Part shown: piece by piece, positions 1,876-14,152 of the stretch
Position numbering within the stretch: the stretch's first letter is position 1
Layout of the letters: the number at the start of each line of letters is the position of its first letter
DNA from: Chthoniobacteraceae bacterium
GTDB lineage: Bacteria > Verrucomicrobiota > Verrucomicrobiia > Chthoniobacterales > Chthoniobacteraceae
Assembly (NCBI GenBank): GCA_028293625.1
Contig: JAQGOL010000037.1
Span: forward strand, 62,001 to 126,000
Reading direction: 5' to 3'
Length of the DNA stretch: 64,000 nucleotides
Program-made: the position numbers and the translations under genes
The notes under the pieces: model-generated
Database searches by the model: none
The model's input: only the letters and a program-made list of their open reading frames with translations
What the model was told of the DNA's origin: nothing

Positions 1876-2017
1876 CTCGCCTTGACGACGGCCTCCGGCT
1901 CGGAAAATTGTCCTATTATTAGTTTTACTTAACGAGCGCCCCGAATCTACCGTCTCCAACAGCGGCGCCCCTTTTTCTTCCGCTGAGTTTTTGGACCGTC
2001 CGTTTTCAACTCTTCAC

Positions 2018-2698
2018 GTGAACTTCATCACTTCGTTTTACAACTCGTCCATTGGCAAAAAATGGATCGTCGCGCTCACCGGCCTTGTGCTGATCGGATA
2101 TGTGATCGGGCACATGGCCGGCAATCTGCAAATCTTTGCCGGGCCCGAAAAGATCAACGCGTACGCGGCATTCCTCCATAGCCTGCCCGGGCCACTCTGG
2201 GTGATCCGCATTTTTCTCATTGTCTGCCTGGTCCTTCACATTGTGATGACGATCAAGCTCGCGGTTGAAAACCGGAGCGCGAAAGCGCAAAAAAATGAGT
2301 ATCAGGCGACCACTTCGTTCAAGCCTGCCAAAGCAACCATGGTTTTGAGCGGGCTCGTTGTGCTGGCCTTTCTGGTCCTGCATCTGGCGCATTTCACCAT
2401 CCGCAGCATTGACCCGCGGTTTCATGAATTGCCTCGGGGCGAATTCGATGTGCATTCCATGGTGATCCTCGGCTTTCAGAATGTCTGGTATTCAGGCTTC
2501 TATATCATTGCCGTTTTTCTACTTTGCCTGCACCTAAGCCATGGGTTCCAAAGTCTGCTCCAAACCCTCGGGATCAATAGTAAAAAAGTGCGGCTTCCGA
2601 TTACGTACGGGGGGCAGGCGCTCTCCTGGCTGATCTTTGCCGGTTACGTTGCCGTTCCAATCGCCGTCCTTACGCATCACTTGACCCTTGTGCCCTAA
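2018..2698 (+). CDS. sdhC: Succinate dehydrogenase/fumarate reductase cytochrome b subunit
   Basis: Membrane anchor (226 residues) of a B-type (Bacillus/Wolinella-like) succinate:quinone oxidoreductase, in which a single five-helix subunit carries two b hemes and no SdhD is needed. The N-terminus reads NFITSFYNSSIGKKWIVALTG, followed by a hydrophobic helix with the histidine-containing segment IGHMAGNLQIFAGP. Further histidines lie in the other helices (LHIVMTIK, HLAHFTIR, LHLSHGFQS) and can act as heme ligands. The GTG at 2018 gives the conserved family N-terminus; an in-frame TTG at 1991 would add nine residues with no family support. The stop codon directly abuts the sdhA start (0 bp). Confidence 0.92.
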   Translation: MNFITSFYNSSIGKKWIVALTGLVLIGYVIGHMAGNLQIFAGPEKINAYAAFLHSLPGPLWVIRIFLIVCLVLHIVMTIKLAVENRSAKAQKNEYQATTSFKPAKATMVLSGLVVLAFLVLHLAHFTIRSIDPRFHELPRGEFDVHSMVILGFQNVWYSGFYIIAVFLLCLHLSHGFQSLLQTLGINSKKVRLPITYGGQALSWLIFAGYVAVPIAVLTHHLTLVP

Positions 2699-4615
2699 AT
2701 GAGCGTTCTTGATTCCAAAATTCCCGCCGGTTCCCTCGATAAAAAGTGGGAGCAATACAAGTTCAACGCCAAGCTCATCAACCCCGCCAACAAGCGCAAA
2801 TACGAGATCCTGATCGTCGGCTCGGGCCTTGCCGGCGCCGCCGCGGCTGCGACCCTGGGTGAACTTGGATTTAAGGTGAAATGTTTCTGCTACCAGGACT
2901 CCCCTCGCCGCGCGCATTCCATCGCCGCGCAGGGTGGAATCAACGCCGCGAAAAACTACCAGAACGACGGCGATTCGGTTCAGCGCCTTTTCTACGATAC
3001 GATCAAGGGAGGCGATTTCCGCGCACGGGAAGCCAACGTCTACCGGCTTGCGCAAGTCAGCGTTAATATCATCGATCAGTGCGTCGCGCAGGGCGTCCCC
3101 TTTGCCCGCGAATACGGCGGCCTGCTTGCAAACCGCTCCTTTGGCGGAGCTCAGGTATCCCGGACATTTTACGCACGCGGCCAGACCGGACAGCAGCTGC
3201 TACTGGGAGCTTACTCGGCCCTTAACCGGCAGATCGCCGAAGGCAACGTGGAAATGTTCCCGCGCACCGAGATGCTCGACCTGGTGCTCGTTGACGGCCA
3301 CGCAAAAGGGATCGTCGCACGCAACATGGTTACCGGGGAAATTCAATCCTACTCGGCCGATTGTGTGATCCTGGCCACTGGCGGATACGGCAACGTCTTC
3401 TATCTTTCTACCAACGCAAAAGGCTGCAACGTCACCGCAACCTACCGGGCATACAAGAAGGGCGCATACTTCGCCAATCCCTGCTACACCCAGATCCATC
3501 CCACCTGCATCCCTGTCACGGGCGACTACCAGTCCAAGCTGACACTCATGAGCGAGTCGCTGCGCAATGATGGCCGCGTCTGGGCGCCGAAAAAAAAGGG
3601 AGACAATCGCCCGCCGCACGAGATCCCGGAAGACGAACGCGACTACTACCTTGAACGGAAGTATCCAAGTTATGGCAACCTGGCGCCTCGCGATATCTCC
3701 TCGCGAGCGGCAAAACAGGTGTGCGACGAGGGCCGCGGGGTCGGCGAGAGCGGCCTCGGCGTCTATCTTGATTTTTCGGATGCGATTAAACGGCTCGGAG
3801 AAAAAGTCGTGCGCGAACGTTACGACAATCTTTTTGAGATGTACGAACAGATCACCGGGGAAAATGCTTATAAAACCCCGATGCGGATATTTCCCGCAGT
3901 CCATTACACGATGGGGGGACTTTGGGTTGATTACGAACTGATGAGCAACGTGCCCGGCCTCTACGTGCTGGGTGAAGCCAACTTCTCAGATCACGGCGCG
4001 AACCGACTCGGTGCAAGTGCCCTGATGCAAGGCCTGGCGGATGGTTACTTCGTGATTCCGTACACGATTGGCAACTATCTTGTCTCACAACTTGGAAAAC
4101 GCCCGGGCACCGACCATCCGGAATTCAAAAAAGCCGAGGCCGAAGTCCATGCGAGGATTAAAAGGCTTTTAGCTATTAAGGGAAGGCGCTCAGTCGACTC
4201 CTTCCACCGCGAGCTCGGGTTGTTGCTGTGGGACTTGTGCGGGATGGGACGCACGGAAAAAAGTCTTCAACGCGCTCTTAAACGGATTCCGATCCTCAGG
4301 GAGGAATTCTGGACCAATGTGAACGTGACAGGCGAAAACGAGGAGCTCAATCAGGCGCTGGAAAAAGCCGGCCGGGTCGCGGACTTCCTCGAATTCGGCG
4401 AGCTCATGTGCCTTGACGCGCTTCAACGGCGTGAATCGTGCGGAGGTCATTTCCGGGAGGAATTCCAAACCGCCGAGGGAGAAGCACTGCGTGACGACGA
4501 GCAGTTCGCGCATGTTGCAGCCTGGGAATTTACGGGTGAAAAGAAACCACCGATCCGCCACACTGAACAGCTCGAGTTTGAAAACGTGCATCTGGCCACC
4601 CGGAGCTACAAGTAA
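2699..4615 (+). CDS. sdhA: Succinate dehydrogenase/fumarate reductase flavoprotein subunit
   Basis: The 638-residue catalytic subunit that oxidises succinate to fumarate (or the reverse) using covalently bound FAD on the cytoplasmic face of the membrane. The Rossmann motif [18 protein letters not shown] is near residue 40. The FAD-attachment and substrate region [21 protein letters not shown] is close to the N-terminus. The active-site segment HPTCIP, the capping region [11 protein letters not shown] and the C-terminal FAD-binding block [21 protein letters not shown] are all present. Length fits the ~640-residue B-type family (TIGR01811-like) rather than the ~590-residue proteobacterial SdhA. 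It is translated directly after sdhC, and sdhB follows 6 bp downstream. The physiological direction of the reaction cannot be told from sequence. Confidence 0.96.
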
Positions 4616-4621
4616 GTCACC

Positions 4622-5371
4622 ATGAATCTGAAGCTTAAAGTCTGGCGCCAAAAGAACGCGCAATCCGAAGGCAAACTTGTCGATTACGAGGCACGCAACA
4701 TCCCTCCGGCCGCTTCGTTTCTGGAAATGCTCGACATTCTTAACGATGAACTTCAGGCTAAGGGAGAAGAGCCGATCGCTTTTGACCATGACTGCCGGGA
4801 AGGCATCTGTGGCACCTGTTCGCTGACAATTAACGGCATCGCTCACGGCCCTAGCGCCACGACGACCTGCCAGCTTTACATGCGGACCTTCAAAGATGGG
4901 GAAACGATCTATATCGAACCTTTCCGCGCCAGATCCTTCCCCGTAATGCGCGATTTGGTGACTGATCGCGCCGCCCTGGACCGCATTAAGCAAGCTGGCG
5001 GATACATCACGGCGCGCGTCGGTTCGGCTCAGGACGCGAACTCAACTCTCATTCCAAAAACCGCCGCTGATCTTTCCATGGAAGCTGCCGCCTGTATTGG
5101 CTGCGGCGCCTGCGTGGCGGCGTGTCCCAATGCCTCGGCCATGCTGTTTGTTGGAGCGAGCGTAACTCATCTTGCAGCTCTTCCCCAAGGTCAGCCCGAG
5201 CGCCGTGAACGGGCTCTTCGGATGGTGAGAAAGATGGACGAAGAGGGGTTTGGCAATTGTTCCAATCATTATGAATGCGAGGCGGTTTGCCCTGCCGAAA
5301 TTCCGATTACCGTTATCAGCAATCTAAACCGCGAATACGCTGCCGCTTCAGCCAGGGAAGCCGCGATTTAG
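4622..5371 (+). CDS. sdhB: Succinate dehydrogenase/fumarate reductase iron-sulfur subunit
   Basis: The 249-residue electron-transfer subunit linking the FAD of SdhA to the hemes of SdhC. The plant-type [2Fe-2S] ligands are C58, C63, C66 and C83 (CREGICGTC plus TTC). The ferredoxin-like domain contributes C158, C161, C164 and C168 ([12 protein letters not shown]) plus C213, C219 and C223, which together supply the ligands for the [4Fe-4S] and [3Fe-4S] clusters. All expected cysteines are present, so the protein should be functional. It is the last gene of sdhCAB and ends 27 bp before the convergent end of the pseudopilin cassettes; no clear terminator is seen between them. Confidence 0.96.
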
Positions 5372-5398: not shown

Positions 5399-5998
5399 TT
5401 AATTTCCGCCGTGCTCAAGATCGGGAGTCACCTCGTGCCAGCGCCGAATGATGCTTAGTCCGCGCGATGAGACTGTGGTAAAATCCGCCTCGCCGGCGCG
5501 AATCTGAACGATGATTTGGGAGGTGGGATTGAGCTCAAGGAAAATGACGCTCTCCCGCATCTGAGCCCCGGCGAACTCGTAGTCGAAAACAAGCTGTTTA
5601 GAGCGCCATCGGTTGATCGGCAGCACTTCGGAATCCTCGGACACTATGACGGGATGGATCGCGCCGTCGGGCAGCAAACGTTCCGCCGTTTTCCTGTAAA
5701 GAGCCAGATCGACAAGATCAGAGCCGAGTGACGGCTTCAGTGGTGACTGAGTAAGCTTCATGACGGCGCGCCGGAACTTCGTGAAGTTAAAAATCGCAGC
5801 GCCTTCGCCCGGGAGTAATTCAGTTTCCGAATCCAGCGTGACGGCGTATTTCTTGTTGCCGTCCAGAAAACAAGGATGCCTGGACCGAACTCCGTCGCTG
5901 GCTGTTGTCACATAGCGGGGAGTCAGGTCAATGGCACTTGCAGCGGCCTCAAAAGTGCATGCAGCGACAAAAAATCGAAGAAAGCTCGTGCGATACAT
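5399..5998 (-). CDS. Secreted protein of unknown function, last gene of pseudopilin cassette 1
   Basis: A 199-residue protein with an N-terminal hydrophobic signal peptide (FLRFFVAACTFEAAASA, cleavage expected after ASA) and no prepilin motif. I do not recognise a family. It is clearly paralogous to the gene at 9468-10061. Both share IDLT.RYVTT, a PCF.DG.KKYAVTLDS block, an FNFTKF motif, VLP.N.W and a C-terminal IIRRWHEV. A conserved cysteine sits near residue 43. The ATG at 5998 is 6 bp after the stop of the large PilX-like gene; a TTG six bases upstream is also in frame. Its fixed last place in both cassettes suggests it acts together with the pseudopilins, for example as a periplasmic partner. 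That role is inference. Confidence 0.7.
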   Translation of the reverse strand: MYRTSFLRFFVAACTFEAAASAIDLTPRYVTTASDGVRSRHPCFLDGNKKYAVTLDSETELLPGEGAAIFNFTKFRRAVMKLTQSPLKPSLGSDLVDLALYRKTAERLLPDGAIHPVIVSEDSEVLPINRWRSKQLVFDYEFAGAQMRESVIFLELNPTSQIIVQIRAGEADFTTVSSRGLSIIRRWHEVTPDLEHGGN

Positions 5999-6004
5999 AA
6001 GCAA

Positions 6005-7873
6005 TTAAAACTTGATCCAGGAGCCACGGCCAAACGCAACGGTGAAAAGGCTTCCCGGCGGTGGATTATCAATAAAATTGGTATCGAAATTCCAACATCG
6101 GGTTGGCGGCCGATAGACGGCGCCCGTGTCCCATTGCCCCGTAAAGACAGAGCTTTGGAAGAGCTCCACCATCGAGCCGTAATAAGTGCAGGTCTTGTCT
6201 CGCCAATCCTCAAGAAAACGGGGGTAGTTGTTTGCGCCCCCCGAGTAACCATACGCAGGACTGCCATCCGCGGGCTGGTAACCGGATGGCATCACTCCGG
6301 CAAGGAGTGCCATATTATAAGTTGTATTGCTGGCTTCCCTCTCGTTCACCTCATCCGAGGATTTTGAGTCTTTCCATTTATTGGAGAGCAACATCACAGC
6401 ATCGCCAATCACAGCCGCAGGTTTGCGTGTATAACCTGGAACGGTCGGACTATCTGTGCCATCAGGATTTCCATTCTTATTGGACGGCACCTTCAGCGGG
6501 TTGTTAGTCGTGCCTGTGTTGTAGTCGCCCTCGACATAAATCGGGTTCTGGCTCACCACCGTCAGTCCATTATCTGGCAGAACCCCACCGTTTTGAAGGC
6601 GGATAGTCTTGGGCTTTCCGTTTGAGCCGCTCTTTGCGGTCACGTCGTGAATATAAAGAATCCCATTGAACCCACTCACTGAGTTAAGAACAGGAGTTAG
6701 CCCTCCAACATCGAAATTCGCAATTTCGACGCTCTTGTCCTCACGCCGATCGTAGATGGTGCTTTTGCCGGTAAAAGCCTTTGTGAGCTTGGTTATGTCG
6801 CCGGCGCTGAGCAAGGCTCCGTTTTGGCTTTCAACAGTCACCGCACTCCCGTCAACCGTGATTATAATCCCCGCCTGATTATAAAGCCGCCGGCTGACAA
6901 AAGGAACAGGGTCCTGGAATACCTGGCCGGTGGCCGAATCAACGGCTTTGCTGGGCGGTTCAATAAGTTCTCTGAAAGAATCGTCGTTAGGATTTGTGTT
7001 TGTCTTATCAACGGCATTTGCTGCGGGTCTACCGAGAACCTCGCTTCTCTCCACATGAGTAACCTGAGCTGACGCCCCGTCGGGAAACAGCGGCTTGTAC
7101 ATCAACTGCCCTGCCTTCCATTCACTCCATTCGTGAGCGTGCGGTGGAGCGGTATTCGTTCCCGAATTATTGGCGGTGCCGTCGCCAAGGAACTTTTTCC
7201 CCGCATAGGAGACATTGCCTTCAAAAGTGACCGGACTTTGATTTCCATCGCTGTCCACACCGTAGCTTAGATAGAGATCCGAATTTGTATGAACCAAACC
7301 GGATACAATCATTGAGGCAGGTTTATACATCTCAAGATCGTGCTCATAAAAAAACATCGCTTCAAAAAGCGGCACCTGCACGTACTGGAAGCGTCTCCTG
7401 ACACCCGCCTCCACTTTGCGTCCTCGCCCATTGGTTTGCCCGACCCGGGCTGAAGCCACATAGTTGTAAGCGGTGCCATGCCAGCCCGGATAGTCGGAAA
7501 GGCTTTCAAAAACAGGAGCCGGCTTTGAATTTTCGGAAGCGACCGGGGTGCCATATTCGTCAGTCGCCTGTATCTTTAGGGGCCCGTTGGAAACCTGATC
7601 GTCAAATCCCTCAAACGCCGGTGTTGTGACCGCCGCCTTGGCCGTTGAAATAGGCGCATCAAGGTTCTGTATGGTTCTCTTCCACACGCCATAGCCATAC
7701 TCGACAGCGCCTTCGGCCACCAACTGCGCTTCAAGATAATCCCGGCTGCGATCAGTAAGTGTGCCGAGCGATGCGGTTTTGTTGAGGGCAATCGCCGCAG
7801 CCGCCGCCATGACAGCCACAACCACGATTGCGACGATGAGTGTACTGCCTTTGCAATTTAATCTCTTCTTCAT
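6005..7873 (-). CDS. Large PilX/GspK-like pseudopilin, cassette 1
   Basis: A 622-residue protein whose N-terminus, KGSTLIVAIVVVAVMAAAAA, resembles the class III leader and single hydrophobic helix of PilX/GspK-type minor pilins: cleavage would follow the glycine and the usual Glu at +5 is absent, as in GspK. The helix is followed by an amphipathic segment ending QLVAEGAVEYGYGVWKR. The large exported part is rich in Gly, Ser, Thr and Asn and contains the block FYEHDLEMYKP...GLVHTNSDLYL, which is nearly identical in the paralogue at 10068. It ends NPPPGSLF...GSWIKF. The ATG at 7873 is preferred over an adjacent in-frame TTG. The gene follows the PilW-like gene by 7 bp. A tip or capping role is inferred from the PilX/GspK likeness only. 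Confidence 0.75.
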   Translation of the reverse strand: MKKRLNCKGSTLIVAIVVVAVMAAAAAIALNKTASLGTLTDRSRDYLEAQLVAEGAVEYGYGVWKRTIQNLDAPISTAKAAVTTPAFEGFDDQVSNGPLKIQATDEYGTPVASENSKPAPVFESLSDYPGWHGTAYNYVASARVGQTNGRGRKVEAGVRRRFQYVQVPLFEAMFFYEHDLEMYKPASMIVSGLVHTNSDLYLSYGVDSDGNQSPVTFEGNVSYAGKKFLGDGTANNSGTNTAPPHAHEWSEWKAGQLMYKPLFPDGASAQVTHVERSEVLGRPAANAVDKTNTNPNDDSFRELIEPPSKAVDSATGQVFQDPVPFVSRRLYNQAGIIITVDGSAVTVESQNGALLSAGDITKLTKAFTGKSTIYDRREDKSVEIANFDVGGLTPVLNSVSGFNGILYIHDVTAKSGSNGKPKTIRLQNGGVLPDNGLTVVSQNPIYVEGDYNTGTTNNPLKVPSNKNGNPDGTDSPTVPGYTRKPAAVIGDAVMLLSNKWKDSKSSDEVNEREASNTTYNMALLAGVMPSGYQPADGSPAYGYSGGANNYPRFLEDWRDKTCTYYGSMVELFQSSVFTGQWDTGAVYRPPTRCWNFDTNFIDNPPPGSLFTVAFGRGSWIKF

Positions 7874-7880
7874 CAACAGT

Positions 7881-8801
7881 TCATTTAGGGCGACTCCGAA
7901 TTGGAATCACGGTTTGGACCCGCATAAACGCGGAGAACTGGTTTGCTTCCTTTGTGGCGAGCACTCTTTCATAGCCAATCACCCGCACTCGCAAATCGAG
8001 TTTGAAGAGTTTGTTTTCAAAAGCATTCGTGGTCGTCAAATAGAAAGGGGTCTCTTCGGCCCCCTGGCTGCCTATCTCATTGCTGATGACGCTATATTTT
8101 GTAGAATCATTGAGGCTAGGCATCGGCTCAAAAGTCGGGTAGCGGCGCAATTCCCGGCGCGTGCCTGACGGCATCACAAGCAACGCTTCCCTATGGACCA
8201 GACGAGCGACTTTTGGCCTAGAAACGCTCCAGCTTATAGCGCTTCCCAGGGAGCTCGTAAATGTGAGCGCAATAGTCTGTACATTTCCATTTACCGCGCC
8301 CGCATTTACAGTTGCCACACGGGGTCTCATTTCGGCAGGAGCCGATTCAATCAGGAGCACATCACCGGGAGCCGGAATTGGCGGCGATGCATACGGGCTT
8401 ATTGACCGTTTCAGACTAACACTCGAGTCGCTAGCCAGCAGACCTGCGCCCCCTGGATGAATAAGCACGTAAGGATCGCCAATGAGCCTGTCGTAGAACA
8501 CACCGGCTGCCGGCTGCGAATCGCCAACTGTTCCGTTGGCGGGCAGACTCGATACCACGCTCCCGGTGGTATCGATCAAAACGGGCATTGTCAGGGCGCC
8601 GTGGAGGCGGTCTCCCATCGAATCAATCGCGTTGCGGAGCGTGTTGTTTGATCGGTTGGCCGAGATATTTTTGGCCAGTAAAATCGCGCTGGTACGCATG
8701 TAGGAGAGCGCCATTGTACCGGCAATAATCCCCACGGCCATTCCAACGGCTACTTCGGCCAGGGTAAACGCGGAGCGAGATGCCAGGCCGTTGGTTTTCA
8801 T
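7881..8801 (-). CDS. PilW-like prepilin, cassette 1
   Basis: A 306-residue prepilin-type protein. The leader SRSA is followed by FTLAEVAVGMAVGIIAG with Glu at +5, the standard signal for prepilin peptidase cleavage and N-methylation. The exported domain contains LLIESAPAEMRPRV and a basic region HREALLVMPSGTRRELRRYP, both closely repeated in the paralogue at 11901-12863. Length and architecture fit PilW/GspJ-like minor pilins. The ATG at 8801 is preceded by a GAGG that is too close to be a good ribosome site; an alternative TTG at 8807 would overlap the upstream stop (TTGA). Coupled translation with the PilV-like gene is likely. Confidence 0.8.
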   Translation of the reverse strand: MKTNGLASRSAFTLAEVAVGMAVGIIAGTMALSYMRTSAILLAKNISANRSNNTLRNAIDSMGDRLHGALTMPVLIDTTGSVVSSLPANGTVGDSQPAAGVFYDRLIGDPYVLIHPGGAGLLASDSSVSLKRSISPYASPPIPAPGDVLLIESAPAEMRPRVATVNAGAVNGNVQTIALTFTSSLGSAISWSVSRPKVARLVHREALLVMPSGTRRELRRYPTFEPMPSLNDSTKYSVISNEIGSQGAEETPFYLTTTNAFENKLFKLDLRVRVIGYERVLATKEANQFSAFMRVQTVIPIRSRPK

Positions 8802-8803
8802 CC

Positions 8804-9256
8804 TCAATCGTCGATTGCCCGCATCGTGGTCAGCGCATACGTAAAATCGCGGCCGCGATAGCTATAATTGATCTGGAACTTGATTCGACGCACATCCGCG
8901 TTCACTGCATTGGGCACAGCAACGACAGTTCGCGTTAAGACGCCGCGAACCAGATCGACCCCGTCGCTTTGAGTCGCCACCGCAACCTCGTTATCAAGCG
9001 TTACATCGTCTTCGTAAACCGAGCCCGAAGCCGGTGTCAGCGCCAGAATGGCTGGCTGATTAGACGCCGACCAGCTCTCTGAAAGCGTCGTATCGATGTT
9101 GCGAGCCACGATTTCACGGGCGTTAGTCAATAGCCGAATTGAAGCCGCATTCCGATTTAGAATCGACATCGTCTGCAAGGTGCCGGCCGCTGCGATTCCT
9201 ATCAACGTCACCGCGACAAGAATCTCGACCAGCGAAGAGCCTCCCAGTTCCCGCAT
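8804..9256 (-). CDS. PilV-like prepilin, cassette 1
   Basis: First gene of the cassette in the direction of transcription. The leader MRELGG precedes SSLVEILVAVTLIGIAAAG, with Glu at +5 and a six-residue class III leader, so prepilin peptidase processing is expected. The mature part (~145 residues) contains NAREIVARNIDTTLSESW and ends in YRGRDFTYALTTMRAIDD, a C-terminus conserved in the paralogue at 12856-13383. Size and helix match PilV/GspI-type minor pilins. The frame stays open to a GTG at 9340 (178 residues); I prefer the ATG at 9256 because it gives the normal short leader. It ends 2 bp before the ATG of the PilW-like gene. Confidence 0.78.
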   Translation of the reverse strand: MRELGGSSLVEILVAVTLIGIAAAGTLQTMSILNRNAASIRLLTNAREIVARNIDTTLSESWSASNQPAILALTPASGSVYEDDVTLDNEVAVATQSDGVDLVRGVLTRTVVAVPNAVNADVRRIKFQINYSYRGRDFTYALTTMRAIDD

Positions 9257-9467
9257 GCCGGACGGGCTTGAAGCTCTCTTCGCCGCCAATGGGAAGCATT
9301 GGAATTGGTTCACCCCGAGTGTTCGCCCCAAATCGAACACCGGACGTGTTTCTTATTTCAAGTGAGTTCTTTTTCTGAAAATAGCGGCTAAAAAATCAGG
9401 ATGATAACGGGTGCCGTCTGATCTTCCAAAATGTCAAAGGGTGAAGGCACAACCCAAGACGGCGCCG

Positions 9468-10061
9468 TTAATTCGCGGAACGTTCAGCCTCCGGCAGCAC
9501 CTCGTGCCACCGCCGAATGATATCGTCACCGCGGGCCGTAACCGTGGGAAAATCCGGCGCTCCTGCCCGGATCTGGACCACGATCTGAGTTGCAGGGTCA
9601 AGATTGAGAAACAGGACACTCTCACACATCGGGCTGCCGCCGGACTCATAAGAAAACGTTAACCGCTGCGAAATCCACTTATTAACAGGAAGAACATTGG
9701 ATGCTTCCGCAATCAGGACCGGATTTTGCGCACCCTGTGGAAGCAGCTGCAACGCGGCTGCGCGATAGCGAGGCAGATTGAGCGGCTCAAACGTGACATC
9801 GGCCTTCATAGGCGACTGGCGCAACTGCATCAGTGCCCGTGGAAACTTGGTGAAATTAAAGAGAGTTGAGCCTTCGGCCGCCACGAGCTCGGTCTGCGAG
9901 TCCAGTGTCACCGCATATTTCTTGTCGCCATCGATAAAGCACGGACGCCTGACCGGGATGCCGTCGGTATAGGTGGTCACATATCGCAGTGTCAGATCAA
10001 TGGCGGAAGCGGCGCCATGAAGGAGCAGTGAAAAAACAGCGGTTAGAACTAAACGGTCCAT
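9468..10061 (-). CDS. Secreted protein of unknown function, last gene of pseudopilin cassette 2
   Basis: A 197-residue protein with signal peptide LVLTAVFSLLLHGAASA and no pilin motif. It is the paralogue of the protein at 5399-5998 and shares its length, the PCFIDGDKKYAVTLDS block, the FNFTKF motif, the PVNKW segment and the IIRRWHEVLPEAE end. It adds a second cysteine in SPMCESV, where the other copy has an arginine. It starts 6 bp after the stop of the PilX-like gene, the same spacing as in cassette 1. I do not recognise the fold. Conservation of position and sequence between the copies argues that it belongs functionally to the cassette. Confidence 0.72.
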   Translation of the reverse strand: MDRLVLTAVFSLLLHGAASAIDLTLRYVTTYTDGIPVRRPCFIDGDKKYAVTLDSQTELVAAEGSTLFNFTKFPRALMQLRQSPMKADVTFEPLNLPRYRAAALQLLPQGAQNPVLIAEASNVLPVNKWISQRLTFSYESGGSPMCESVLFLNLDPATQIVVQIRAGAPDFPTVTARGDDIIRRWHEVLPEAERSAN

Positions 10062-10067
10062 GATAGG

Positions 10068-11894
10068 TTAGAATTTCATCCAGGCGCCGCGTGTGATAGT
10101 CACCGCATCAAGGCTGCCAGGAGGTGGGTTGTCAGTGTATTTGGGATCGAAGTTCCAGCGCCGGGTCGGAGGGCTGTAGATATTACCGGTATCCCACTTG
10201 CCCGTGTAAGTCTTGCTTCTAAAGAGTTCCACCATTGAACCAAAGTAAGTGCACGTTTTCCCGCTCCATGTTTCAAGGAACCTTGGATAATTATTAGCTC
10301 CCCCTGAGTAACCATACTGTGCCTGGGGATAATGCGGATCACCGGAGGCGGGTGTATAAAGAGAAGGCATAACACCGGCCAGAATCGCCATATTGAAAGT
10401 GGTATTGCTCGCCACGCGGCCGCCAACTGAGGCGGCTGCATTGCCGTCGCTCCATGAATTTGAAAGGAGCATGACTGCATCGCCGATCACGGCGGCCGGC
10501 ACCCGTGTGTATCCCGCCACGGTTGGAGAGTCGGTGTTATTCGGATTGCCCGTGTTGTTGGCAGGCACGGCCGTGGGACTGGTAGTTGTGCCTGTATTGT
10601 AGTCTCCCTGAACATAGACAGGATTTTGACTGACCACCGTCAGGCCGGCCGTAGGGAGGATACCGCCCTTTTGCAATCGGATCGACTTGACTTCCGCGTC
10701 GCTCCCGGTTGCGGGAGTTACATCCTGAAGGTAGATGATGCCGTTAAAACCGGAGGCCGCATTCAGCACCGGAGTAAGCGCGCTAATATTGAAGTTCGCC
10801 ACATCGACACTCTTTCCTTCCCGTTGATCCATCATAGTGCTTTTGCCCGTGAACGACGCGGCAATGCTTGTAATCTGTGTGGCGGTCAAAGTCGTGCCAT
10901 TCTTGACGGCGACCGTCGCACTGGTTCCGTTAATGGTCACGACAATGCCGGCCTGATTGTAGAGACGGCGTTTGGCAAGTTCGCCCGGATCAGAGAATAC
11001 TTTGCCGGTGGCGGGATCAATGGCGCTGCTTGGCGGCTCGATGATCTCATGAAGCGAGTCATCGTTGGGATTGGTATTGGTTGTATTGAGAACCGCTGCG
11101 GGATCTTTTCCAAGCGGCTCGTAACGCGGCACTTGCGTTACCTGGTTCCCTTCGCCGTTCGGATACTGCGGCGGATACATGGTGCCGGGGGGACTCCAAA
11201 GCGATCCCCCGGGAGGCGCTACATTGTCGTAGTAATTTTTGACATAAGAGACATTGTTTTGAAACGTCAGGTCCGTCGAGGCGGTGGCGACGCTCAGATA
11301 GAGGTCAGAATTGGTGTGAACCAGCCCCGTCACCATCATCGGAGCCGGCTTATACATCTCAAGATCGTGTTCATAAAAGAACATCGCCTGAAAGAGCGGC
11401 ACCTCCACATACTGGAAGCGGCGGCGCACTCCTGCTTCCAGTTTCTCGCCGCGCGGGTTGGTTTGACTGACGCGCGCGCTGGCGACGTAGTTATAAGATT
11501 TCCCGCGCCAGCCAGGATAGTTTTCAAGGCTTACAAACACTCCTGTCGGGACAGCGGTGGCCGAGGCGACCGGCGCTCCATACGCATCGCATGCCTGCAC
11601 CTTGAGGGGGCCGTTCACGGTGGAATATCCAAACCCGGCAAAGGTTGGCCCGGTAATATCGATAGTTGGCAGCGCGCCATCTTTGTTCTGGATTCGCTTT
11701 TTCCAGACCCCAAATCCGTATTCGACGGCACCTTCAGCTACAAGGGTTGCTTCCACAAAGTCGCGGTTGCGGTCGGTCAAGCGTCCCGTTGTTCCGGTGG
11801 TGTTCATGGCGACGCCAATTGCGGCTGATACCGCCAACACCGCGAGCAGAGCGATAACAAGCGTGCCGCCCTCGCGGTTGTTCTTTAGCTTCAT
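10068..11894 (-). CDS. Large PilX/GspK-like pseudopilin, cassette 2
   Basis: A 608-residue paralogue of the protein at 6005-7873. The N-terminus REGGTLVIALLAVLAVSAAIG is a prepilin-like helix without Glu at +5. TDRNRDFVEATLVAEGAVEYGFGVWKK follows, nearly the same as in cassette 1. The exported domain keeps the ARVSQTNPRGEKLEAGVRRR segment, the FYEHDLEMYKP and GLVHTNSDLYL block, a DGNAA-type loop and the RWNFDPKYTDNPPPGSL end. The region between the central blocks differs most in length and composition. The ATG at 11894 is chosen; a TTG six bases upstream is also in frame. It follows the PilW-like gene by 6 bp. Function inferred as for cassette 1. Confidence 0.75.
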   Translation of the reverse strand: MKLKNNREGGTLVIALLAVLAVSAAIGVAMNTTGTTGRLTDRNRDFVEATLVAEGAVEYGFGVWKKRIQNKDGALPTIDITGPTFAGFGYSTVNGPLKVQACDAYGAPVASATAVPTGVFVSLENYPGWRGKSYNYVASARVSQTNPRGEKLEAGVRRRFQYVEVPLFQAMFFYEHDLEMYKPAPMMVTGLVHTNSDLYLSVATASTDLTFQNNVSYVKNYYDNVAPPGGSLWSPPGTMYPPQYPNGEGNQVTQVPRYEPLGKDPAAVLNTTNTNPNDDSLHEIIEPPSSAIDPATGKVFSDPGELAKRRLYNQAGIVVTINGTSATVAVKNGTTLTATQITSIAASFTGKSTMMDQREGKSVDVANFNISALTPVLNAASGFNGIIYLQDVTPATGSDAEVKSIRLQKGGILPTAGLTVVSQNPVYVQGDYNTGTTTSPTAVPANNTGNPNNTDSPTVAGYTRVPAAVIGDAVMLLSNSWSDGNAAASVGGRVASNTTFNMAILAGVMPSLYTPASGDPHYPQAQYGYSGGANNYPRFLETWSGKTCTYFGSMVELFRSKTYTGKWDTGNIYSPPTRRWNFDPKYTDNPPPGSLDAVTITRGAWMKF

Positions 11895-11900
11895 AGTCAA

Positions 11901-12863
11901 TTAGTTCTTGGGGCGCAACCGCGACGGGATCACGGTGTTGATTCGGACAAAGTTGGAAAAGTCGTTGACCTCCTTGTTTGACAGCACTTTCTCAAATCCA
12001 GTTGCCCGGATTCGAAAATCGAGGTTAAGAAGTTTGTCGGGCGCAACGGAGGTCGACGTGACAATGGTGCTCAGCGAGAAAGGCGTAAGTTCCCCGCCCG
12101 CGGTGCCTACCTGCCGTGTGAGAACAGTATACTTGGCCGGGTTGGTAAGATCGGCGGCGGCCACGGGCGGCTCAAAGGAAGGATACCGCCGCAGCTCATT
12201 GCGAGTCCCATTCGGCATCACGATGAGAGCTTCGCGCCGAATGAGCTTGGAAGTCTTTGGCCTTGAAACATCCCAAAGGATGCTGCTTCCAAGAGCGGCG
12301 TTGAAGGTAACAGTGATTGATTGCAGACCGGCTGCGTCTGGGGCATCCTTAACCACCGTTTTGACGAGCGGACGCAGCGATGCGGGAGCCCCATCGATAA
12401 TCAGCACGTCTCCAGGCGTCGGCACTGGAGGCGATGCGAAGACGTTGGTGGAAATGGTAATTTTGAGAGTCGTCGTGGAAGAGGCCAGGCCGGTTCCACC
12501 CGGGTGCGTGACAATATAAGGCTCCCCCAAAAGCCGGTCGTAGTAAACGCCGGCCGCCGCCGTTGAACGGTATACGCCGACTCCACTGCCGGAAGCCCCG
12601 AGGCTCACAGGCGCTGCGGAAGTATCAATCAGCACCGGCACATTCACCGTGCTTTGGACGCTGTCCGCAACCCGATCAAGGGAACCGCGCAATTCGTTAT
12701 TTGAGAAATTGGTGCCGATGTTTTTTGCAAAAAGGATGGTCCCGATCCGCATGTAGGAAAGAGTCAATCCGCAGACCACCACGCCGATCGTGGCGGCGAC
12801 AACCATTTCAACCAGGGTAAAAGCAGAGCGGGAATTGCGGGGGGCGCGCATAATATTAATCAT
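11901..12863 (-). CDS. PilW-like prepilin, cassette 2
   Basis: A 320-residue prepilin. Leader PRNSRSA precedes FTLVEMVVAATIGVVVCG with Glu at +5. The exported part repeats features of the cassette 1 copy: VLIIDGAPASLRPLV, RREALIVMPNGTRNELRRYPSFEP and a C-terminus ending VNTVIP-like (INTVIPSRLRPKN). The ATG at 12863 overlaps the end of the PilV-like gene by 8 bp, which suggests coupled translation; in-frame TTG 12866 and ATG 12851 are alternatives, and the latter gives a shorter leader. A PilW/GspJ-like structural role in a pseudopilus is inferred from the family. Confidence 0.8.
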   Translation of the reverse strand: MINIMRAPRNSRSAFTLVEMVVAATIGVVVCGLTLSYMRIGTILFAKNIGTNFSNNELRGSLDRVADSVQSTVNVPVLIDTSAAPVSLGASGSGVGVYRSTAAAGVYYDRLLGEPYIVTHPGGTGLASSTTTLKITISTNVFASPPVPTPGDVLIIDGAPASLRPLVKTVVKDAPDAAGLQSITVTFNAALGSSILWDVSRPKTSKLIRREALIVMPNGTRNELRRYPSFEPPVAAADLTNPAKYTVLTRQVGTAGGELTPFSLSTIVTSTSVAPDKLLNLDFRIRATGFEKVLSNKEVNDFSNFVRINTVIPSRLRPKN

Positions 12864-13383
12864 CAATGGAACGCATAGTGGTTAGCGAGTAGCTAAACGG
12901 CCTTCCGCGGTAAGTATAATCTAACCTAAATGTAATCTTGCGTATTACCGGTTTATCCAGGATGTCGACAGCATCGACAGGCACCACGTCGGTGACAATG
13001 CGAGTCAATACACCTTGAACCAGCTGTGTGCCGGTACTGCCCTGCAAGGCCACATCGACTACATTCACGTTTCCGGCGTCATCATCCCAAACCGAACCAG
13101 CCGTCGAAGTCAAAGCGAGGATTGCAGGGACCGCGCTGGTGGGATCGGAGGTAAAGGTGACGGAAAGTGCAGTATCGATATTGCGCTGCACGATTGCCCG
13201 CGCGTTAGTTAGCATTCGCGTGGCGGCTGCGTCACGATTCAGGAGCGTCATTGATTGGATGGAACCGATCGCTACCATTCCGATCAAAACGGCGGCGATA
13301 AGGACCTCTGTTAGCGCGATGCCTTGAATAAAACGGCGACAAAATTGACCGGGTTTGAGCATACGATAACCCGTTCCAAGCAT
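12856..13383 (-). CDS. PilV-like prepilin, cassette 2
   Basis: First gene of cassette 2. The cleavage region is RRFIQG followed by IALTEVLIAAVLIGMVAIG, with Glu at +5. The mature domain carries NARAIVQRNIDTALSVTF and ends YRGRPFSYSLTTMRSIDD, almost the same end as the cassette 1 protein. The leader is 21 residues from the ATG at 13383 or 14 residues from an in-frame ATG at 13362; a TTG at 13395 is also possible. The upstream 220 bp contains no gene and should hold the promoter of the whole minus-strand series. The family match is to PilV/GspI-like minor pilins. Confidence 0.78.
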   Translation of the reverse strand: MLGTGYRMLKPGQFCRRFIQGIALTEVLIAAVLIGMVAIGSIQSMTLLNRDAAATRMLTNARAIVQRNIDTALSVTFTSDPTSAVPAILALTSTAGSVWDDDAGNVNVVDVALQGSTGTQLVQGVLTRIVTDVVPVDAVDILDKPVIRKITFRLDYTYRGRPFSYSLTTMRSIDD

Positions 13384-13615
13384 TCCACGTTCCAATGGAA
13401 GTTTCGGAAGCTAAATATTTATTAGCCTCGGCATTGAAGCGTGCGCCCGCCGCGCAGCCTGGCCCGTTTGCGCTGGTCAGTTTGCGCGAAAATAAAAACC
13501 GCCGCGCGGCTGAGCGCAACCTGTAGCGGGCGCGTGGACGAGATCCGGGTTTGACAAAACAGCACGGCGATGAGACCTAGGCGCCCGTTAACCGCCCGGC
13601 AGCCAGGCTCGTCAC

Positions 13616-14152
13616 ATGACTCTCAGACAAACCACCCGTTTGATGCTTGCCATCGTCACCTTCCTCGTGACGATGCCCACACTCTTTGGCCTGGAGATTG
13701 ATCCTCCCTTTAAATTGAGCTGGGGCGAGGCGCCGATGCGGCTGGAACGGCTGTTGGCCGGCGCGGGCGCCAAGATTATTTTGAAACATCCTGTCGAAGA
13801 CGGCACCGAGGCGTGGGAGGTGGAAGGCATCGTGCAGGACGGCCTCAAAAGGACCGTTTTCTATTTCCGTGCCGCGGCTCTGGTCGGCGTTGAATTGCAG
13901 TATCGCAATGACGCATGGACCCAGGAAAAATACGACGATTTCATGGGTCGCTGGCGGCGCACGATCGAGCAGCGTTATGGCGCGGGCCAGCTCATCGCGA
14001 GAAAGACCGAGCCGAAGGAGGACGTGACTCAAACCATTGTCGGCTACAAATGGAACCACAACAACACGGCCCTTGAACTCGTTTTCTTTTCGGCGCAAAG
14101 CCCCACAGGCCAGATCTTCCGGACACTGAGCGTCCACTACAAAGGAACCTGA
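13616..14152 (+). CDS. Secreted hypothetical protein
   Basis: A 178-residue protein with a clear signal peptide (LMLAIVTFLVTMPTLFG) followed by LEIDPPFKLSWGEAPMRLERLLAG. The mature part alternates short strands with a basic helix DDFMGRWRRTIEQRYG. I recognise no family or catalytic motif. It stands alone on the + strand between two minus-strand blocks and is followed 24 bp later by a good intrinsic terminator, so it is probably a monocistronic gene. A periplasmic location is inferred from the signal peptide. Confidence 0.65.
   Translation: MTLRQTTRLMLAIVTFLVTMPTLFGLEIDPPFKLSWGEAPMRLERLLAGAGAKIILKHPVEDGTEAWEVEGIVQDGLKRTVFYFRAAALVGVELQYRNDAWTQEKYDDFMGRWRRTIEQRYGAGQLIARKTEPKEDVTQTIVGYKWNHNNTALELVFFSAQSPTGQIFRTLSVHYKGT

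Follow-up and report, generated by a model that had tools for sequence, protein, structure and literature searches.

The 64,000-nucleotide stretch of Chthoniobacteraceae DNA analyzed here (the window) carries two neighbouring sets of four genes on the minus strand, each in the order V-W-X-S, which raises the question of what these sets build and what a fourth, non-pilin gene contributes to them. Set B spans 13395-9468 and set A 9340-5399. Their genes, in the direction of reading, are as follows.

V_b, 12856-13395, minus strand: PilV/GspI-type minor pseudopilin; the ATG start is probably at 13383; mature N-terminus IALTE, with Glu5.
W_b, 11901-12866, minus strand: PilW/GspJ-type minor pseudopilin; FTLVE, with Glu5; N_methyl (PF07963) match above the cut-off.
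X_b, 10068-11900, minus strand: HpsA-related, putative GspK/PilX-type tip pseudopilin of 610 residues, without Glu5; NF038301 match with E 2.5e-11.
S_b, 9468-10061, minus strand: secreted protein of 197 residues with a predicted Mog1/PsbP/DcrB-like fold; 6 nt past X_b.
V_a, 8804-9340, minus strand: PilV/GspI-type minor pseudopilin, with Glu5.
W_a, 7881-8807, minus strand: PilW/GspJ-type minor pseudopilin; FTLAE, with Glu5.
X_a, 6005-7876, minus strand: HpsA-related, putative GspK/PilX-type tip pseudopilin of 623 residues, without Glu5; NF038301 match with E 4.3e-11.
S_a, 5399-6004, minus strand: secreted S-family protein; ATG start at 5998; 6 nt past X_a.

The reading of these genes bears out the original prediction that two adjacent sets share one gene order, and the equal spacing that it described before the last gene is the 6-nt gap between the X stop codon and the S start in both sets, taking ATG starts. 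Pfam and NCBIfam searches leave most cassette proteins without a name. Members of the V_b family match the PilV (TIGR02523) and GspI (TIGR01707) models, and the N terminus of X_a matches GspK (NF037980) with an E value of 0.042. Downstream, the cassettes converge on sdhCAB (window 1991-5371). In the relative G403, a V-W-X-S cassette (L161:8301-12001) begins just past sdhA-sdhB and runs the same way, which may mean that the cassettes and the sdh genes are long-standing neighbours. On the other side, a gene for a 178-residue secreted protein (13616-14152, plus strand) diverges from the cassette pair; a search of Pfam and NCBIfam with this protein returned 0 matches.

The proteins of sets A and B are 54% (V), 50% (W), 62% (X), and 54% (S) identical, in keeping with the close likeness predicted for each position, and the nucleotide identity is 55-61%. 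Synonymous sites are near saturation (pS 0.70-0.80), with pN of 0.26-0.34 and pN/pS of 0.32-0.49. The pair is thus an old duplication in which purifying selection has long acted on both copies, and is neither a chance resemblance nor an assembly artefact. The window copies pair as sisters in the X tree (support 96/93), and a third copy of the same genome, on contig C39, branches next to them (support 97/89). The duplication is specific to this lineage. Evolution has been roughly twofold faster in set A than in set B (0.46 versus 0.20), and S has the longest branches among the four cassette proteins. The relative G404 also contains two V-W-X-S cassettes (L146:3416-12139), which are convergent; their copies fall in separate branches of the X tree, so that pair is not a recent duplication.

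Further copies are present beyond the window. The genome contains five X genes: the window pair, one on C39, and two on C31. C31 carries two V-W-X-S sets and C39 a V-W-X set without S. The C39 set (L021:7139-10432) is close to the window pair, its S having been lost or never present, and has sulfatase-like genes upstream. X is found in 66 of the 388 genomes of the phylum, with some of those matches spanning the N-terminal helix only, and in 20 of the 40 genomes of the family. Of the family genomes, 19 contain S, all of them among the 20 with X, and none of the 20 without X does. Nearly all S matches in the family (31 of 33) adjoin X; the remaining two lie behind an exosortase gene and beside a gene reading as leuB. 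At the exosortase locus (L164:3925-6167, G403:C44), the S-family gene overlaps the end of the XrtA/XrtD-like exosortase gene, which stands in place of X, and a GspK-like gene lies just beyond the two on the opposite strand.

Across the order, S is directly downstream of X at 28 of 32 X loci and V is present at 29. Linkage of the fourth gene, as a non-pilin partner, therefore holds well outside the locus where it was first proposed. S is missing from the C39 paralogue and three further X loci of the order, so a V-W-X set has no strict need of S, unless these loci receive it in trans. The distance matrices of V, W, X, and S correlate with r of 0.83-0.91 (V-W 0.88, W-X 0.91, X-S 0.85, W-S 0.89), and none of 1000 permutations reached values as high. 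Shared ancestry of the loci must account for part of this correlation. V-W-X-S is a real, conserved cassette whose four proteins diverge in step. No description of it was found in literature searches.

The first three proteins display a familiar prepilin pattern. V and W have a prepilin motif with Glu at position +5 in nearly all cassettes that could be read, and X has a prepilin motif without Glu5 in every cassette read; the reading covered the window pair and 21 further cassettes. The same pattern is seen in GspI/J/K and PilV/W/X, where the members without Glu5, GspK and PilX, are assigned to the tip (PMC7541494). Relatives of W show weak matches to GspJ-, ComGE-, and HpsC-type models. With three linked class III prepilin proteins, the putative tip one without Glu5, the V-W-X trio belongs to an established type of minor pseudopilin set. 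The combination of an HpsA-type X with a predicted PsbP-fold S is what is new here. The locus had been proposed as an undescribed system, which is upheld for that combination and not for the trio.

Machinery that could assemble such a set is encoded elsewhere in the genome, which contains pilB/pilT-type ATPases on contig C6, further GspE/PilB-type ATPases, secretins, and a prepilin peptidase (one A24 peptidase match). This inventory and the GspI/J/K-like composition fit the original prediction of a tip or secretion complex served by a machine encoded at a distance, with both type IV pilus (T4P) and type II secretion system (T2SS) genes available. The T2SS operon on C13 carries its own GspI, J, and K, so the window sets are not the only GspIJK of that system, and V-W-X as their supplier was dropped. 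At L073, in one other Verrucomicrobiota genome, the neighbours of the trio include pilM, a T2SSM-type gene, and a secretin gene.

The sets had also been likened to the verrucomicrobial Verru_Chthon prepilin cassettes. Were V-W-X-S an ordinary member of that group, its similar triad of PilV-, PilW-, and GspK-type proteins would be explained, as would the profile alignment of the N-terminal helices and the weak TIGR02599 matches of three of ten W relatives. The family models speak against it. The window X proteins have no match to TIGR02600 at E values up to 1, and none of 22 X members matches at 0.1. The GspH-like D gene (TIGR02596) is absent from the window cassettes and those of relatives, the matches in this genome lying elsewhere. 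Aligned with four Verru_Chthon-A-type proteins that this genome encodes, the X profile matches over the first 70 residues and no further. In addition, the genome possesses several Verru_Chthon-type sets of its own (L060, L087, L089, L090), mostly in the order D-B-C-A, with an A protein of 1150-1470 residues and without S. Membership was therefore dropped; as far as sequence can tell, this reading is refuted, and we consider it extremely improbable.

X instead resembles HpsA. All 22 diverse X members tested match the HpsA model NF038301, with a best E value of 2.4e-25. The match of the window X proteins spans two stretches and scores 41-42 bits against a cut-off of 400 bits, below HpsA membership, and X is 600-800 residues long compared with 1503 positions in the model. 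By these comparisons, X is a relative of HpsA and not HpsA itself. The structure of X predicted from three sequences has a pLDDT of 35. The hpsA-D genes encode a membrane protein and pseudopilins for which a role beside T4P in exporting polysaccharide has been proposed (PMC6495340), and the cassette might accordingly serve exopolysaccharide export or handling, as is thought for HpsA-HpsBCD in cyanobacterial hormogonia. A glycosyltransferase-like gene directly follows X in three relatives of the class (G361, G060, G293), which would suit this role, as would the S gene behind an exosortase gene. However, the window X proteins score far below the HpsA cut-off, and glycosyltransferase and polysaccharide genes, looked for beside the window cassettes, are absent there, where sdhCAB and unrelated genes lie instead. 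Even in Nostoc, how the polysaccharide is exported is under dispute (PMC12288463). We regard a role in exopolysaccharide export as unlikely.

Relatives of X extend beyond the phylum. Searches of plasmids by tblastn, with a relative of X as query, located them in Thermus, Deinococcus, and Picosynechococcus. The prepilin-prepilin-X order is kept in these genera, and in most cases three prepilin genes directly precede X; the first of the three in Picosynechococcus matches GspH. The arrangement is similar to the pilA1-4/comZ locus of Thermus, whose solenoid-bearing tip pilin, ComZ, is GspK-like and has gained a large domain (PMC6561018). X could by analogy be a ComZ-like DNA receptor, the cassettes making competence-pilus tips, and the Thermus and Deinococcus relatives behind two or three prepilin genes would agree with this. 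Yet X profiles searched against PDB chains at E values up to 10 matched neither ComZ nor any other solved structure, and the Thermus X itself gave no ComZ match among PDB chains. X and ComZ can thus be no closer than distant paralogues, and the Thermus locus as described lacks an S partner. A competence role of this kind seems quite improbable.

The fourth protein, S, begins with a plain hydrophobic signal sequence, judged by eye, and has no prepilin motif, in agreement with its first description as a non-pilin. No enzyme family was found for S in Pfam or NCBIfam, which is against its being an unrelated enzyme beside the trio. Structure prediction from three input sequences gave five models with mean pLDDT of 41-78, the best having a pLDDT of 78 and a pTM of 0.75. 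A Foldseek search with this model retrieved EagT6, PA94, DcrB, PsbP, LpqN, and Mog1 (E values of 2e-5 to 5e-4), and VIA-align gave Z scores of 11.5 for EagT6, 11.4 for PsbP, and 10.0 for DcrB. Residues ~25-189 are aligned, and the best rows have Z of 10-11.5 and an rmsd of 3.0-4.7 over 113-148 residues. S therefore models as a Mog1/PsbP/DcrB/EagT6-like fold. At the sequence level, S has no match to Pfam PsbP (best E value 0.22, for one relative), and its profile found no Mog1/PsbP member among PDB chains; the matches obtained, a PE-like toxin at E 0.028 and another at E 1.8, are taken as chance. The Mog1/PsbP fold is found in assembly factors, T6SS transmembrane-helix chaperones, and surface proteins, among others, and sharing it proves no function for S.

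Several relatives of the class outside the order have, right after X, a gene for a secreted protein of 200-266 residues; others (e.g., L063, L064, L065) have no such gene. These post-X proteins are too distant from S for a HMMER match and resemble one another in part (hhalign 80-97% in four of six group pairs). A profile pooled from them covers almost the full length of S in an alignment scoring 35; the reversed control scored 13, and no score among 60 column shuffles exceeded 26. Alignments of S by hhalign with a single post-X protein from another order were too weak, and the pooled profile alone exceeded the controls. Searches with post-X profiles found further members, one of which (G229) likewise lies next to X, and with one profile a member of the other group was recovered. 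We treat S and the post-X secreted proteins, with moderate confidence, as one deep family.

The position of S next to X invites a reading as cargo, in which V-W-X would be a dedicated T2SS-like pseudopilus tip, X would recognize S, and each cassette would export its own S. The Sec-type signal peptide of S speaks for this, as does the place of its gene immediately behind that of X, with starts overlapping or abutting. Its branches are the longest of the set, and GspK is thought to contact T2SS substrates, to which PilY1 has been called analogous (PMC7541494). On the other hand, S belongs to no known enzyme family, its predicted fold is known mainly from binding and assembly proteins, and T2SS substrates are rarely tied one-to-one to a pseudopilin set. 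The distances of S also agree with those of W and X to about the same degree as those of the pilins agree among themselves. Export of S as a substrate is in our judgement a minor possibility.

The four proteins of V-W-X-S probably form an alternative complex that primes, or sits at the tip of, a filament like the type IV pilus or the type II pseudopilus, with S as the dedicated partner. The composition and gene order match those of pilV-pilW-pilX-pilY1 clusters, ComZ offers a precedent, and HpsA-D are proposed to act with T4P, which together argue for this reading. We infer the tip location, the V-W-X and S-X contacts, and the use of alternative tips. The Glu5-bearing V and W would stack beneath X, and X, large and without Glu5, would cap the filament with its big HpsA-related extracellular part. 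S would cross the inner membrane by means of its own signal peptide and, with its predicted Mog1/PsbP fold, be a working partner of X at the tip or in the periplasm. It would thereby take the role that PilY1 has in those clusters, whether as the subunit that ends the tip or as a partner dedicated to the folding or loading of X. The filament itself would be polymerized by the T4P or T2SS machinery encoded elsewhere, and the extra cassettes, the tandem pair included, would be alternative tips on one machine. A comparable arrangement is suggested for Myxococcus xanthus, where three minor pilin/PilY1 clusters may give different tips on one machine (PMC7541494).

A broader proposal, which we advance tentatively and rate at somewhat less than even, is that the cassettes represent a distinct, Verrucomicrobiota-wide tip class, in which a small PsbP-fold protein takes the place of PilY1 and caps or loads an HpsA-type GspK protein, and which has diversified by duplication of the four-gene unit. 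If true, HpsA, until now labelled a hypothetical membrane protein, would count as a tip pilin in view of the cyanobacterial and Deinococcota relatives. The four-gene unit is now defined, and its members are mostly outside curated family models. It may connect what HpsA does when cyanobacteria secrete slime, the outsized competence tip pilins of the Thermus type, and the many orphan prepilin cassettes of Verrucomicrobiota. The near-constant X-S link provides a simple pair for biochemistry, and the tandem copy may be a natural case of tip diversification.

Several known systems share features with the cassette. The Verru_Chthon A-D sets (TIGR02600/02598/02599/02596) are also multi-copy verrucomicrobial prepilin cassettes with PilV-, PilW-, and GspK-type members, but differ in gene order, in the length of A, and in the lack of S, and X lies outside the A family. 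In the HpsA-HpsBCD set of filamentous cyanobacteria (NF038301, NF038303, NF038304), to which X is recognizably related, small pseudopilins accompany HpsA as V and W accompany X, and a T4P partnership has been proposed. However, S is missing from the described hps set, and no glycosyltransferases flank the window cassettes. ComZ/PilA1-4 of Thermus thermophilus likewise combine GspI-, GspJ-, and GspK-like minor pilins with an outsized tip protein (PMC6561018), but the X-ComZ pair has no detectable sequence match, the solenoid is described for ComZ, and S is an extra gene here. The Mog1/PsbP-fold proteins (PsbP, DcrB, the EagT6/SciW chaperones, LpqN, and Apa) share the predicted fold of S, with sequence identities of just 3-13%. 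The PilV-PilW-PilX-PilY1 clusters of M. xanthus, Pseudomonas, and others contain minor pilins with a PilX type lacking Glu5 and a non-pilin protein with a signal peptide, and several clusters in a genome serve one machine. S resembles PilY1 in that it has a Sec signal peptide, is not a pilin, and is encoded with the PilX-type gene. In contrast to those clusters, X is large and HpsA-like and the cassette has no FimU/GspH gene. The C-terminal β-propeller of PilY1 was not found in S, which at 197 residues has no Pfam match and a different predicted fold; where PilY1 carries a propeller, S is a protein of ~200 residues with a predicted PsbP-type fold.
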